Source: an uncultured Pelagibacteraceae bacterium (GTDB taxonomy: Bacteria > Pseudomonadota > Alphaproteobacteria > Pelagibacterales > Pelagibacteraceae). From it: a stretch of DNA of 33,477 nucleotides. This document shows, one piece after another, positions 18,851 to 21,094 of the stretch. A program made the translations under genes and the position numbers. The notes under the pieces are model-generated. The model saw only the letters and a program-made list of their open reading frames with translations. It was not told where the DNA came from and made no database searches. The stretch is taken from assembly GCA_902584015.1 (NCBI GenBank), contig CACHYG010000009.1, forward strand, positions 1 through 33,477, read 5' to 3'. How positions within the stretch are numbered: the stretch's first letter is position 1; each line of letters begins with the position of its first letter.

Positions 18851-18897
18851 AATGGTGAGCCGTGTTGGACTCGAACCAACGACCCATTCCTTAAAAG
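18851..18897. repeat. Left att repeat: displaced tRNA-Lys 3' half
   Basis: These 47 bp are identical to 21048-21094. They cover the encoded CCA, acceptor 3' strand, T arm, variable loop, 3' anticodon stem and part of the anticodon loop of tRNA-Lys, in the minus orientation. Identity stops at TTAAAAG in the anticodon loop; the next bases (AATACTACAC) do not restore the tRNA 5' half. It is therefore a fragment, not a gene. It starts 9 bp after the M48 peptidase stop. Confidence 0.95.
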
Positions 18898-18936
18898 AAT
18901 ACTACACAACACAGAAAATTCCAGTTTAAAACAAAA

Positions 18937-18968
18937 AAACCTTCATTTAACGTTCGTATGGAGGGTTT
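18937..18968 (-). terminator. Possible imperfect terminator hairpin
   Basis: AAACCTTCAT pairs imperfectly with ATGGAGGGTTT. On the minus strand the stem is followed by a run of seven T (18939-18933), as in an intrinsic terminator. The stem has one mismatch and one bulge in that orientation. No minus-strand gene ends here now, so it may be left over from a lost gene or may protect the att boundary. Confidence 0.3.
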
Positions 18969-19000
18969 AGAATTGAATAAATGTGTAAAATTTCAAATAT

Positions 19001-19106
19001 AAAACTGTACACTCACTGTACACCTTAAGTTTTAGAAATTTAAAAAAAGTGTTTAGTTTTTGGATTTTCAGAATTTTTTTCAAGTGTTTAGAAAGTGTAC
19101 AGTTTT
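19001..19106. repeat. 13-bp perfect inverted repeat around the left arm region
   Basis: AAAACTGTACACT at 19001-19013 is exactly complementary to AGTGTACAGTTTT at 19094-19106. The left arm overlaps the 21-bp element. Between the arms lie the first and second copies of AAGTGTTTAG. The spacing (about 80 bp) favours protein-binding sites over a transcript hairpin. Confidence 0.7.
19006..19026. repeat. 21-bp element, left copy (TGTACA-type)
   Basis: Begins TGTACACTCAC and ends GTACACCTT; 20 of 21 positions match the copy at 20968-20988 (T/C difference at 19017/20979). Internally it contains two TGTACA half-sites 11 bp apart. It is 108 bp inside the left att repeat. Possible recombinase arm site or operator. 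Confidence 0.75.
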
Positions 19107-19147
19107 TTGTTGTGTAAATCCGTGCAGAAGAATTACTTGCTGAGAAA

Positions 19148-19161
19148 ATTCTTATAAGAAT
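19148..19161. promoter_or_regulatory. 14-bp perfect palindrome upstream of the methyltransferase gene
   Basis: ATTCTTATAAGAAT reads the same on both strands and lies 36 bp before the methyltransferase ATG, where an operator would act. No separate controller protein is encoded, so self-regulation by one of the two enzymes or by a host factor is possible. A 14-bp palindrome can arise by chance in AT-rich DNA. Confidence 0.4.
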
Positions 19162-19197
19162 GATTTAAAATTAACCTATATTAATGTATAAAATTCT

Positions 19198-20127
19198 ATG
19201 CCAAACAGATCTCATTTTAACAAAGGTCATATAGCTTTAAATGTTCTTAAGAAAAAAGGTAATTTACACTCATCTCTTAAGGTTAAGAAAAATAAAATAG
19301 ATAAAAATACCCATGCATTTTTAAAAATTGATTGTTTACATTTATTAAAAAAGATTCCAGATAATTCTATACAATTAATAATATGTGACCCTCCATATAA
19401 TATTTTAATGGCTAAATGGGATAGACATAAAAATTATACAGATTGGGCATCAGAATGGATTAAAGAAGCTTATAGAGTTTTATCATTAGATGGTAATTTT
19501 GTTATTTTTGGTGGTTTACAATATCAAGGTGAGCAAGATGGTGGCGATTTACTTAGCTTAATATCACACATAAGAAATTCTACTAAATTTAATTTAGCAA
19601 ATCTTATTATATGGAATTATCCAAATGGTATGGGTGCTCAAAGATTTTTTGCTAATAGGCATGAAGAAATTGTTTGGTTAACAAAAACTAAAAAATATTA
19701 TTTTGACTTAGATGCAGTTAGAATTGAATATGATGAAGAGACAAAAAGACTTTATAAAAAGGATAAAAGATTAAGGCCAGAATCTATAGATAAAGGAAAA
19801 AATCCCACTAATGTTTGGCAAATTACAAGATTAAATGGAAACTCAATTGAGAGAGTTGGTCATCCTACGCAAAAACCAAAAGAAATTATAAAAAGACTTA
19901 TCAAATCCCTATCTTATGAAGGTTCTACTGTGCTAGATTTTTTTGCTGGGAGTTGTGTTTCCTCGGCTGTCTCTTGTGAAGAAAATAGAAACAGCATCTC
20001 TGGGGATTATGATAGTAAAATTTTTAAATATCAGAAATTACAATTTAAAAAATTAGATAAAAAATTTCTATCCAAAAGTAATCAAATTTTTGAAAATGAA
20101 TTTAAAAAACATCCTATTTTTAAATAA
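19198..20127 (+). CDS. Beta-class adenine-N6 DNA methyltransferase, M.RsrI-like (predicted GAATTC)
   Basis: This 309-residue enzyme should methylate adenine in the site cut by the adjacent nuclease, protecting host DNA. Motif order is that of beta-class N6 methyltransferases: catalytic motif IV IICDPPYNIL (D64-P-P-Y67) near the N-terminus, the target-recognition region in the middle, then GHPTQKP (221-227) and the AdoMet motif I DFFAGSC (247-253). Long stretches, such as MPNRSHFNKGH, GGLQYQGE, IIWNYPNGM, AQRFFANRHEEI, RLNGNS and ERVGHPTQKP, match what I recall of Rhodobacter M.RsrI, which modifies GAATTC. Motif I has Cys253 where Gly is expected (FAGSG). It ends 4 bp before the convergent nuclease gene. 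Confidence 0.95.
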   Translation: MPNRSHFNKGHIALNVLKKKGNLHSSLKVKKNKIDKNTHAFLKIDCLHLLKKIPDNSIQLIICDPPYNILMAKWDRHKNYTDWASEWIKEAYRVLSLDGNFVIFGGLQYQGEQDGGDLLSLISHIRNSTKFNLANLIIWNYPNGMGAQRFFANRHEEIVWLTKTKKYYFDLDAVRIEYDEETKRLYKKDKRLRPESIDKGKNPTNVWQITRLNGNSIERVGHPTQKPKEIIKRLIKSLSYEGSTVLDFFAGSCVSSAVSCEENRNSISGDYDSKIFKYQKLQFKKLDKKFLSKSNQIFENEFKKHPIFK

Positions 20128-20131
20128 AAAG

Positions 20132-20962
20132 TTATAATTTTAAACTATCTTTTAGTACATTTAATGATGTCTCTACACATTCAAGCATAATTTTAAACAT
20201 TTGTTGTGATTTCCAACTTTCACATTGAAAATATAGAGATGGAATTTGTAACATCTGACTATTATTATTAACATTAACAAAAATATTTTTACAATAATTA
20301 ATATTTATTTTCATACCATAATTACTTGCTGTAACCCTATCTATTCGATTTAATGCACCATTATCATGTGCAATTGTTACTTTTTTTCCATAATTTGATT
20401 TTAATGTAAATGTCGTAGTTGAAAAATTTGAGCCCTGAAAAAAAATAACGTAAGGAAAATGATATTCATCAATCATAAAATTTCTACACTCTAAGATATT
20501 TTTGTGAACTCTCTCTATAGCGTTACCTGCAACCATTAAATCTTGGTCCTTTTTTTTACCTTGTTTTATGCCTGATAATATTTTTTCAACATCATTTCCT
20601 TGGTGCTTAGACTCTCCAATTAAAATAGTTCTCCATTTATCAAATTTATCTTTAGCTTCAATGATACCGCCATCAGGTTTGATACTTGAATTAGAAACAA
20701 ATATTGTATTTCCTAGTTTTTTATCTATTGAATTTAATTTTCTATTAATTTCTTTTTTTTCAATTTTATTTCTGTGTCTAAAATTTATGTTCTTATATTT
20801 TAATTTAAGATATTTGTTTACTTCACCAACAACTAGGCCTATGGATTGATCATGTTTTTGAGCTTCTTTACCAAAAATTCCTAAAGGACCACCAGCTTCT
20901 TCATGTTGAAGAGTTAATCTACTTGCTTGTCCTTTCCCCTTAATTTTTATGACCTTCTTCAT
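20132..20962 (-). CDS. Type II restriction endonuclease, EcoRI/RsrI family (predicted GAATTC)
   Basis: This 276-residue protein is a clear EcoRI homologue (EcoRI is 277), aligning with a constant offset of 6 through the core. The PD-(D/E)xK site is complete: NSSIKPDGG with D97 (EcoRI D91) and IGESKHQG with E117 and K119 (E111, K113). The recognition helix segment is DQDLMVAGNAIERVHKN (139-155), keeping Met143, Asn147, Ala148, Arg151 and Lys154 of the EcoRI contacts; EcoRI Ala138 is Val144. LNRIDRVTASNYGM keeps R206 and R209 (EcoRI R200, R203). It would cut unmethylated GAATTC as a dimer. ATG 20962 is preferred to GTG 20974, which lies inside the 21-bp repeat. It lies 87 bp downstream of tRNA-Lys on the same strand. 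Confidence 0.95.
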   Translation of the reverse strand: MKKVIKIKGKGQASRLTLQHEEAGGPLGIFGKEAQKHDQSIGLVVGEVNKYLKLKYKNINFRHRNKIEKKEINRKLNSIDKKLGNTIFVSNSSIKPDGGIIEAKDKFDKWRTILIGESKHQGNDVEKILSGIKQGKKKDQDLMVAGNAIERVHKNILECRNFMIDEYHFPYVIFFQGSNFSTTTFTLKSNYGKKVTIAHDNGALNRIDRVTASNYGMKININYCKNIFVNVNNNSQMLQIPSLYFQCESWKSQQMFKIMLECVETSLNVLKDSLKL

Positions 20963-20967
20963 AAATT

Positions 20968-20988
20968 TGTACACTCACCGTACACCTT
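20968..20988. repeat. 21-bp element, right copy, at the endonuclease start
   Basis: Matches 19006-19026 at 20 of 21 positions and is in the same orientation. It sits 5 bp upstream of the endonuclease ATG, so it covers the region where a ribosome would bind; on the minus strand it reads GGTGTACGGTGAGTGTACA. Protein bound here would be expected to affect endonuclease expression. It lies 59 bp inside the right att repeat. Confidence 0.75.
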
Positions 20989-21047
20989 TTTTAAAAAATA
21001 TTTAAGAGTTAAAAGAATGGGGTATTTCAGCCATTAAATGGAAGTTT

Positions 21048-21094
21048 AATGGTGAGCCGTGTTGGACTCGAACCAACGACCCATTCCTTAAAAG
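21048..21094. repeat. Right att repeat within tRNA-Lys
   Basis: Identical to 18851-18897 over 47 bp. It forms the 3' part of the intact tRNA-Lys, ending in the anticodon loop. In the usual model this copy came with the element and rebuilt the tRNA on insertion. Confidence 0.95.

Follow-up and report, generated by a model that had tools for sequence, protein, structure and literature searches.

The EcoRI-type restriction-modification (R-M) pair in the window, the 33,477-nucleotide stretch of contig CACHYG010000009.1 from an uncultured Pelagibacteraceae bacterium analyzed here, lies on a 2,197-bp element inserted at a tRNA-Lys(TTT) gene, between perfect 47-bp direct repeats of the 3' half of that gene. 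The preferred reading, at a probability of roughly 0.74, is that the pair is the cargo of an integrase-less tRNA-Lys cassette, likely moved by the integrase of a temperate phage that uses the same site. The assembled sequences speak directly for insertion with a 47-bp duplication, empty sites, a same-site family with swapped cargo, near-identity in two species, tandem arrays and the lack of a recognizable integrase in the cassettes. The cassette ends would work as a phage attachment site (attP), with a core half-site and arm-type sites, and a phage integrase is named as the mover mainly because the cassette arms agree with phage arms. The first-pass annotation set its limits at 18851 and 21094, the exact outer ends of the direct repeat; it overlooked that the R-M pair belongs to a family of tRNA-Lys cassettes without integrase, in which it is one of several interchangeable cargoes. 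The features are as follows.

18851..18897, no strand assigned: outer attachment-site (att) copy, the displaced tRNA-Lys 3' half and 47-bp direct repeat (repeat search; empty sites in relatives).
18898..18914, minus strand: phage-like core half-site by the crossover region, TTGTGTA upstream of CTTTTAA (cassette and phage comparison).
18898..19130, minus strand: conserved left end of the cassette (arm region), common to other cassettes and resembling phage P arms.
19006..19023, plus strand: arm-type repeat pair with an 11-bp period, TGTACACTCACTGTACAC.
19093..19101, minus strand: one arm-type repeat, TGTACACTT, with the same sequence as the arm that is repeated in phage L133.
19198..20127, plus strand: M.RsrI-like adenine methyltransferase gene, 309 aa (intact open reading frame (ORF), Pfam, M.RsrI structure, PADLOC).
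20132..20962, minus strand: EcoRI-family restriction endonuclease gene, 276 aa from ATG (intact ORF, Pfam, solved structures, PADLOC, alignment).
20963..21047, minus strand: right end of the cassette, kept in most members, with a short inverted repeat at 21031-21043.
20968..20985, plus strand: second arm-type repeat pair, TGTACACTCACCGTACAC, just upstream of the nuclease gene.
21048..21094, no strand assigned: inner att copy, forming the present 3' half of the complete tRNA-Lys.
21050..21125, minus strand: complete tRNA-Lys (TTT), the integration target.

The cassette holds the R and M genes and no further recognized gene. Inside each of its ends is a pair of repeats with an 11-bp period, and the corresponding pattern, TGTACACTCAYYGTACAC, has two matches in the window's own genome when up to 2 mismatches are allowed. 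Chance was considered as the source of these repeats and rejected: 0.01 matches would be expected in the window, where 2 occur, and a reversed control pattern has none in the same genome. The site is empty in 24 of 27 readable loci from the same genus, including those of the two closest relatives (G017 and G009), with the tRNA within about 35 bp of an M48 peptidase gene. In the other three loci (L044, L045 and L057, from genomes G033, G015 and G008), tRNA-Lys and the M48 gene are separated by inserts of 0.79-0.93 kb that lack a second att copy. At least one of these may be a decayed cassette, since the Sel1 gene of L045 is 79% identical to a cargo gene of the cassette in G072. Nine second-family loci (L063-L071), in which neither M48 nor tRNA-Lys is present in the stretch, and L039, which ends at a contig end, were left out of this count.

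Ten more complete cassettes, with related ends, occupy the same tRNA-Lys in eight other genomes (G420, G260, G239, G282, G497, G437, G072 and the single-cell genome AG-343-O17), and nine of the ten have other cargo. Including that of the window, the 11 complete cassettes range from 1,644 to 2,511 bp, with a mean of 2,028; a cassette in G487 (L116) is cut by a contig end and is excluded. Each carries one to four ORFs. Among the cargo types, a Pif1-like helicase occurs twice, in one case alongside a 134-aa ORF; the others include a PDZ-domain protein with a 113-aa ORF, a PD-(D/E)XK nuclease, a 464-aa ORF that has no Pfam match, and Sel1-repeat proteins whose partners are unmatched. In none of the 11, all of which retain both ends, did Pfam scans of the cargo ORFs recognize an integrase. 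The repeat pattern occurs in 5 of 397 genomes of the order. The left end was matched at E below 1e-16 by 7 of 399 genomes of the genus, and both counts include the window's own genome; weaker left-end matches in 83 further genomes of the genus are short and lie outside the family count. PADLOC models match the R-M pair strongly, and on eight other cargo ORFs they give only weak Cas4-like, helicase and PtuA resemblances. Defence is thus likely for the R-M cargo and not shown for the others. In G497, one of the carriers, a further ORF (L114:11811-13001) adjoins tRNA-Ser and by eye resembles a type III methyltransferase.

The clearest sign of movement comes from AG-343-O17, also an uncultured Pelagibacteraceae bacterium. 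It carries the same R-M cassette at 99.9% identity, although its tgt gene is only 74% identical to that of the window, which argues that the cassette moved recently. The mismatches number 1 of 831 in R, 1 of 930 in M, 0 of 300 at the left end and 1 of 85 at the right end. This genome also shares the gene order on the tgt side, in agreement with the first-pass view of the host as SAR11-like; the synteny is confined to that side, since the next gene beyond the array is not M48. Chimerism of the contig, which the same annotation had named as a possible objection, is not borne out, because the cassette is assembled there with its own junctions. Three cassettes stand there in a tandem array that contains four att copies. 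The R-M cassette comes first; the others are a 1,946-bp cassette with a 505-aa MORN-repeat ORF and a 2,511-bp cassette with a PD-(D/E)XK ORF and three small ORFs. The att copy in the tRNA has the T-arm of the window (GTTGG...CCAAC), the second and third have GCTGG...CCAGC, and the fourth has a decayed form of the latter. The natural reading of this arrangement is that the R-M cassette entered AG-343-O17 last, at the tRNA, bringing the 3' half of its former host's tRNA with it. A second case of transfer is a Pif1-like cargo shared by G239 and G282 at 95.4% identity, against 74.8% identity for their tgt genes.

The R-M pair itself is a new member of a known family; the novelty lies in its vehicle. 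The nuclease matches the Pfam EcoRI family (PF02963) at 2.1e-102 and 342 bits, and the EcoRI chains of solved structures match it over nearly its full length (7e-83). As the first-pass annotation had proposed from a whole-length alignment, the catalytic triad is kept: D97, E117 and K119, in the numbering of the 276-aa protein that begins at the ATG at 20962, do not vary among 13 aligned sequences, which include that of the window. The GNAIER segment is likewise invariant and NRIDR is conserved in this alignment; both are segments that we take to have a role in DNA recognition. The stretch adjoining GNAIER differs from EcoRI at one position, DLMVAGN for DLMAAGN, as it does in nearly all aligned homologues. 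A longer reading frame would start at GTG 20974 and give 280 aa. That start falls inside a repeat, and a database protein that is 96% identical is also 276 aa long, so the ATG is the likelier start. This protein is the nearest of 2,285 homologues at E up to 0.001, and the next is 67% identical. A 93-aa ORF, antisense within the nuclease gene (20568-20849, plus strand), is also present in the near-identical DNA of AG-343-O17 and has no sign of being a gene.

The assignment of the methyltransferase as M.RsrI-like holds as well, with M.RsrI as the best solved relative over residues 1-284 (1.8e-119); it carries the PF01555 domain and a DPPY motif in the form DPPYNIL. The RsrI-type combination reported for the pair is indeed present, but is not distinctive, since an M.RsrI-like gene occurs in 32 of 42 genome loci of the nuclease family and the pairing is therefore ordinary. 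The pair resembles the RsrI and EcoRI type II systems in its EcoRI-family nuclease with catalytic residues and its M.RsrI-type methyltransferase, and differs from them in being carried on a tRNA-Lys cassette in a streamlined marine genome and in its motif I, FAGSC. The nuclease is predicted to be specific for GAATTC, and the pair to methylate and cut this site and hence to defend the host against phages. The rarity that the first-pass annotation anticipated is confirmed: among 397 genomes sampled from the order, and again among 61 relatives, the window's own genome was the only one in which the nuclease was found (AG-343-O17 lies outside both samples). For Pelagibacter, GANTC is described as the methylated motif, with methyltransferases that lack partner nucleases in four genomes (PMC9516812). 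A plasmid search with the cassette gave 16 records at 60-80% identity; the eight listed are either unnamed or represent R or M genes from R-M systems on plasmids.

Phages that could supply an integrase were sought among six viral contigs, picked by the tRNA-Lys 3' half alone. Four of them (L128, L129, L132 and L133) have a tyrosine integrase of 419-436 aa near the tRNA-Lys site, and of these L132 and L133, whose integrases are 87% identical, proved to have core and arm sites resembling those of the cassettes. L133 represents the end of a prophage, and beyond its att site lies the end of the same M48 gene (72% protein identity). The stretch between its integrase and att contains the site AACTGTACACTT three times, plus one close copy; the core half-site of L133 is TGTTGTGTAAGTTACTTTTAA, compared with TGTTGTGTAACTTTCTTTTAA in several cassettes. 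The left ends of ten distinct cassettes were aligned with the phage arms, with 200 dinucleotide shuffles as a control; the AG-343-O17 copy of the R-M cassette was excluded as a near duplicate from this and the other ten-row comparison of the cassettes. For nine cassettes, whose arms read TGTACACT, the best fit is L133 (local z 4.5-10.4, a score reached by no more than 1 of 200 shuffles). The tenth, in G072, has CGCACACT/CGTACACT arms and fits L132 over about 230 bp (z 24.1, 0 of 200 shuffles). Nothing was found with L128 (z -1.6 to 2.2). No viral contig other than L133 has the tandem-arm pattern, and none other than L132 and L133 has the core pattern.

The L133 integrase has 72 relatives in a large protein database, and nine of the first ten, 57-100% identical, are in short contigs; none was found in annotated phage records. 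The L133 terminase is 24-28% identical to described phage terminases among the 60 matches listed and below 60% in all 2,637 records, so the helper phage group appears to be uncultivated. In L128, L129 and L132 a complete tRNA-Lys lies 295-415 bp away from a short core, about 7-10 bp long, whose sequence matches the anticodon loop, which makes them candidates for tRNA-dependent lysogeny at tRNA-Lys in marine phages.

If an L133- or L132-type phage is present, its integrase would recombine the cassette with tRNA-Lys, inserting and excising cassettes in trans. The tRNA would stay whole because the cassette carries its 3' half. New cassettes would be likely to enter beside the tRNA, pushing older ones outward, and the R-M pair would defend its host against phages, perhaps including those whose integrase moves it.

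Several observations weigh against this reading. No excision, circle or transfer has been observed, and the action of a phage integrase on the cassette is something we infer from sequence comparison. L129 fits the cassette ends little, yet lies above the shuffles in several cases (semi-global z 2.4-4.1). A first comparison covered four cassettes and left out the core letters; it gave weaker scores with L133 (z 2.9-6.3), and in it the G239 cassette scored higher with L129 (4.0) than with L133 (2.9). The scans for the tandem-arm and core patterns show rarity and not independent discovery, because the patterns were written after both the cassette and the phage sides had been read. The match to the other phage arm is weak, with 26 and 11 of 500 shuffles reaching its score; 14 of 15 bases agree, and the position is +74 in L132 but +114 in G072 and G437, an offset close to the added tRNA half. 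Searches that started from the cassettes by themselves did not arrive at L132 or L133. The cassette left-end motif occurs in no viral contig, and neither does the cassette core junction, so that no cassette was seen in viral contigs, which is a weak test of packaging. The arm-pair pattern has matches in L072 and L073, but these are single, with no tRNA in the stretch and no related ends, and were judged to be chance. Relatives of the L133 integrase were found in none of 10 carrier genomes, in a search without a positive control, and in 2 of 399 genomes of the genus, at 24-26% identity; helper and cassette have thus never been seen together. As for the cargo, the activity of the methyltransferase is not assured. 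Its motif I, which for the S-adenosylmethionine-binding motif of such enzymes we take to be FxGxG, reads DFFAGSC, with the same C in the AG-343-O17 copy; at that position 31 other loci have G in 28, A in 2 and an unread residue in 1. Nor is GAATTC specially avoided by two pelagiphages, ranking 11 among 24 palindromes in HTVC019P and 5 in HTVC011P.

It may be, though it is unlikely, that the cassettes are decayed genomic islands, remnants of elements that once had their own integrase and now move only by chance or with a neighbour. Remnants of integrative and conjugative elements (ICEs) that lack an integrase but keep att sites, known as cis-mobilizable elements (CIMEs), are described along with tandem accretion (PMC5704250), and the three short inserts without a second att copy, one with a Sel1 gene related to a cassette cargo, would fit such decay. 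Decay accounts poorly for 11 complete cassettes from which the integrase is missing yet both ends are kept, and for an R-M cassette that has moved recently enough to be 99.9% identical between two genomes with tgt genes at 74% identity.

Movement driven by the host, through a chromosomal Xer-type recombinase or through homologous recombination of tRNA-Lys loci with each other after DNA uptake, with the resemblance to phages incidental, is less probable still. PF00589 has one match in 10 of 12 genomes searched, always an Xer-sized protein (307-326 aa) and never within a cassette. In favour of host-driven movement, seven of the nine carriers searched, which did not include AG-343-O17, have one such recombinase, and the two with none (G000 and G437) are incomplete genomes. 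The phage integrases of this kind score only 20-29 bits with PF00589, and for that reason the L133 integrase itself had been used as the query in the search for its relatives. Homologous recombination could likewise spread a whole cassette with its flanks. However, the tgt-side flank in AG-343-O17 is host-like up to the tRNA, whereas the cassette and the tRNA 3' half match the window, a combination that fits site-specific recombination in the anticodon region. The arm repeats moreover go with two phage types, and neither Xer nor RecA would need them. It is very improbable that the pair is an assembly artefact or simply an immobile R-M locus of the ordinary kind next to a tRNA gene: R-M genes are often near tRNA genes, but the exact 47-bp duplication, the empty sites and the near-identical cassette with its own junctions in a second genome all speak against it.

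The cassette family represents a novel form of non-autonomous integrative element, intermediate between CIMEs, integron cassettes and phage satellites. Like CIMEs, for which retained att sites without an integrase and tandems at one site are described (PMC5704250), the cassettes keep their att sites, and no integration or transfer genes were recognized in them by repeat search and Pfam scans of the cargo ORFs. CIMEs are described in the same source as decay products of ICEs or of integrative and mobilizable elements (IMEs), whereas the cassettes form a family of about 2 kb with phage-attP-like ends, swapped cargo and recent movement between species; no ICE or IME relative of them turned up, and their ends resemble phage arms. 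They differ from clusters of attC sites lacking integron-integrases (CALINs) and from integron gene cassettes in using a tRNA gene as their site and in having ends like phage attP arms. Phage-inducible chromosomal minimalist islands (PICMIs) and other phage satellites share with the cassettes a small size, a marine setting and a link to a phage, and some carry defence genes, but PICMIs are modelled by integrase, AlpA, primase and Fis genes (PMC10803314), none of which was recognized in Pfam scans of the cargo ORFs. Tycheposons are, similarly, tRNA-associated cargo elements of streamlined aquatic bacteria, described as 4-200 kb with a tyrosine recombinase (PMC10872708); the cassettes are 1.6-2.5 kb without one. 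L128, L129 and L132, with a complete tRNA-Lys near an anticodon-loop core, follow the plan given for tRNA-dependent lysogeny (PMC10865867), which in pelagiphages is reported at tRNA-Leu (PMC6811365). Phages of that kind carry a complete tRNA, whereas the cassettes carry a tRNA 3' half and leave the host tRNA whole, and thereby seem to meet the same need. Among the literature matches listed, in a search whose scope did not take in most subscription journals or bioRxiv preprints, there was no description of such cassettes in SAR11.

SAR11 bacteria are among the most abundant cell groups in the ocean, with small genomes and poorly known phage defence. A tentative proposal, rated slightly below even odds, is that they have an integron-like system without an integron, in which tRNA-Lys is the landing site, 2-kb cassettes have counterfeit phage attP ends, and each temperate infection supplies the integrase. 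If so, with every such infection a defence gene could be captured, shuffled or lost at a site that the phage needs, and the phage's own integrase would spread genes that restrict it. The size of 1.6-2.5 kb could then reflect the extra DNA that a phage head of about 40 kb accepts when a cassette is in tandem with a prophage, a head size that is that of HTVC011P and HTVC019P and not of the helper phages themselves. Tiny arrayed cassettes that likely use a phage integrase would explain gene gain and loss, restriction system included, without the cost of mobility genes, and a borrowed integrase would be an unusual route for streamlined bacteria to trade likely virus defences.

A trace of the enzyme was sought in the avoidance of GAATTC by the two pelagiphages and was rejected: the site occurs once in HTVC019P and not at all in HTVC011P, but avoidance is just as strong for many palindromes. 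In both genomes, six-base palindromes containing two G+C reach about half their expected number (119 compared with 236 expected in HTVC019P, and 103 compared with 225 in HTVC011P), which is a hint of restriction pressure in general. HTVC011P also has a gene annotated as an anti-restriction protein.

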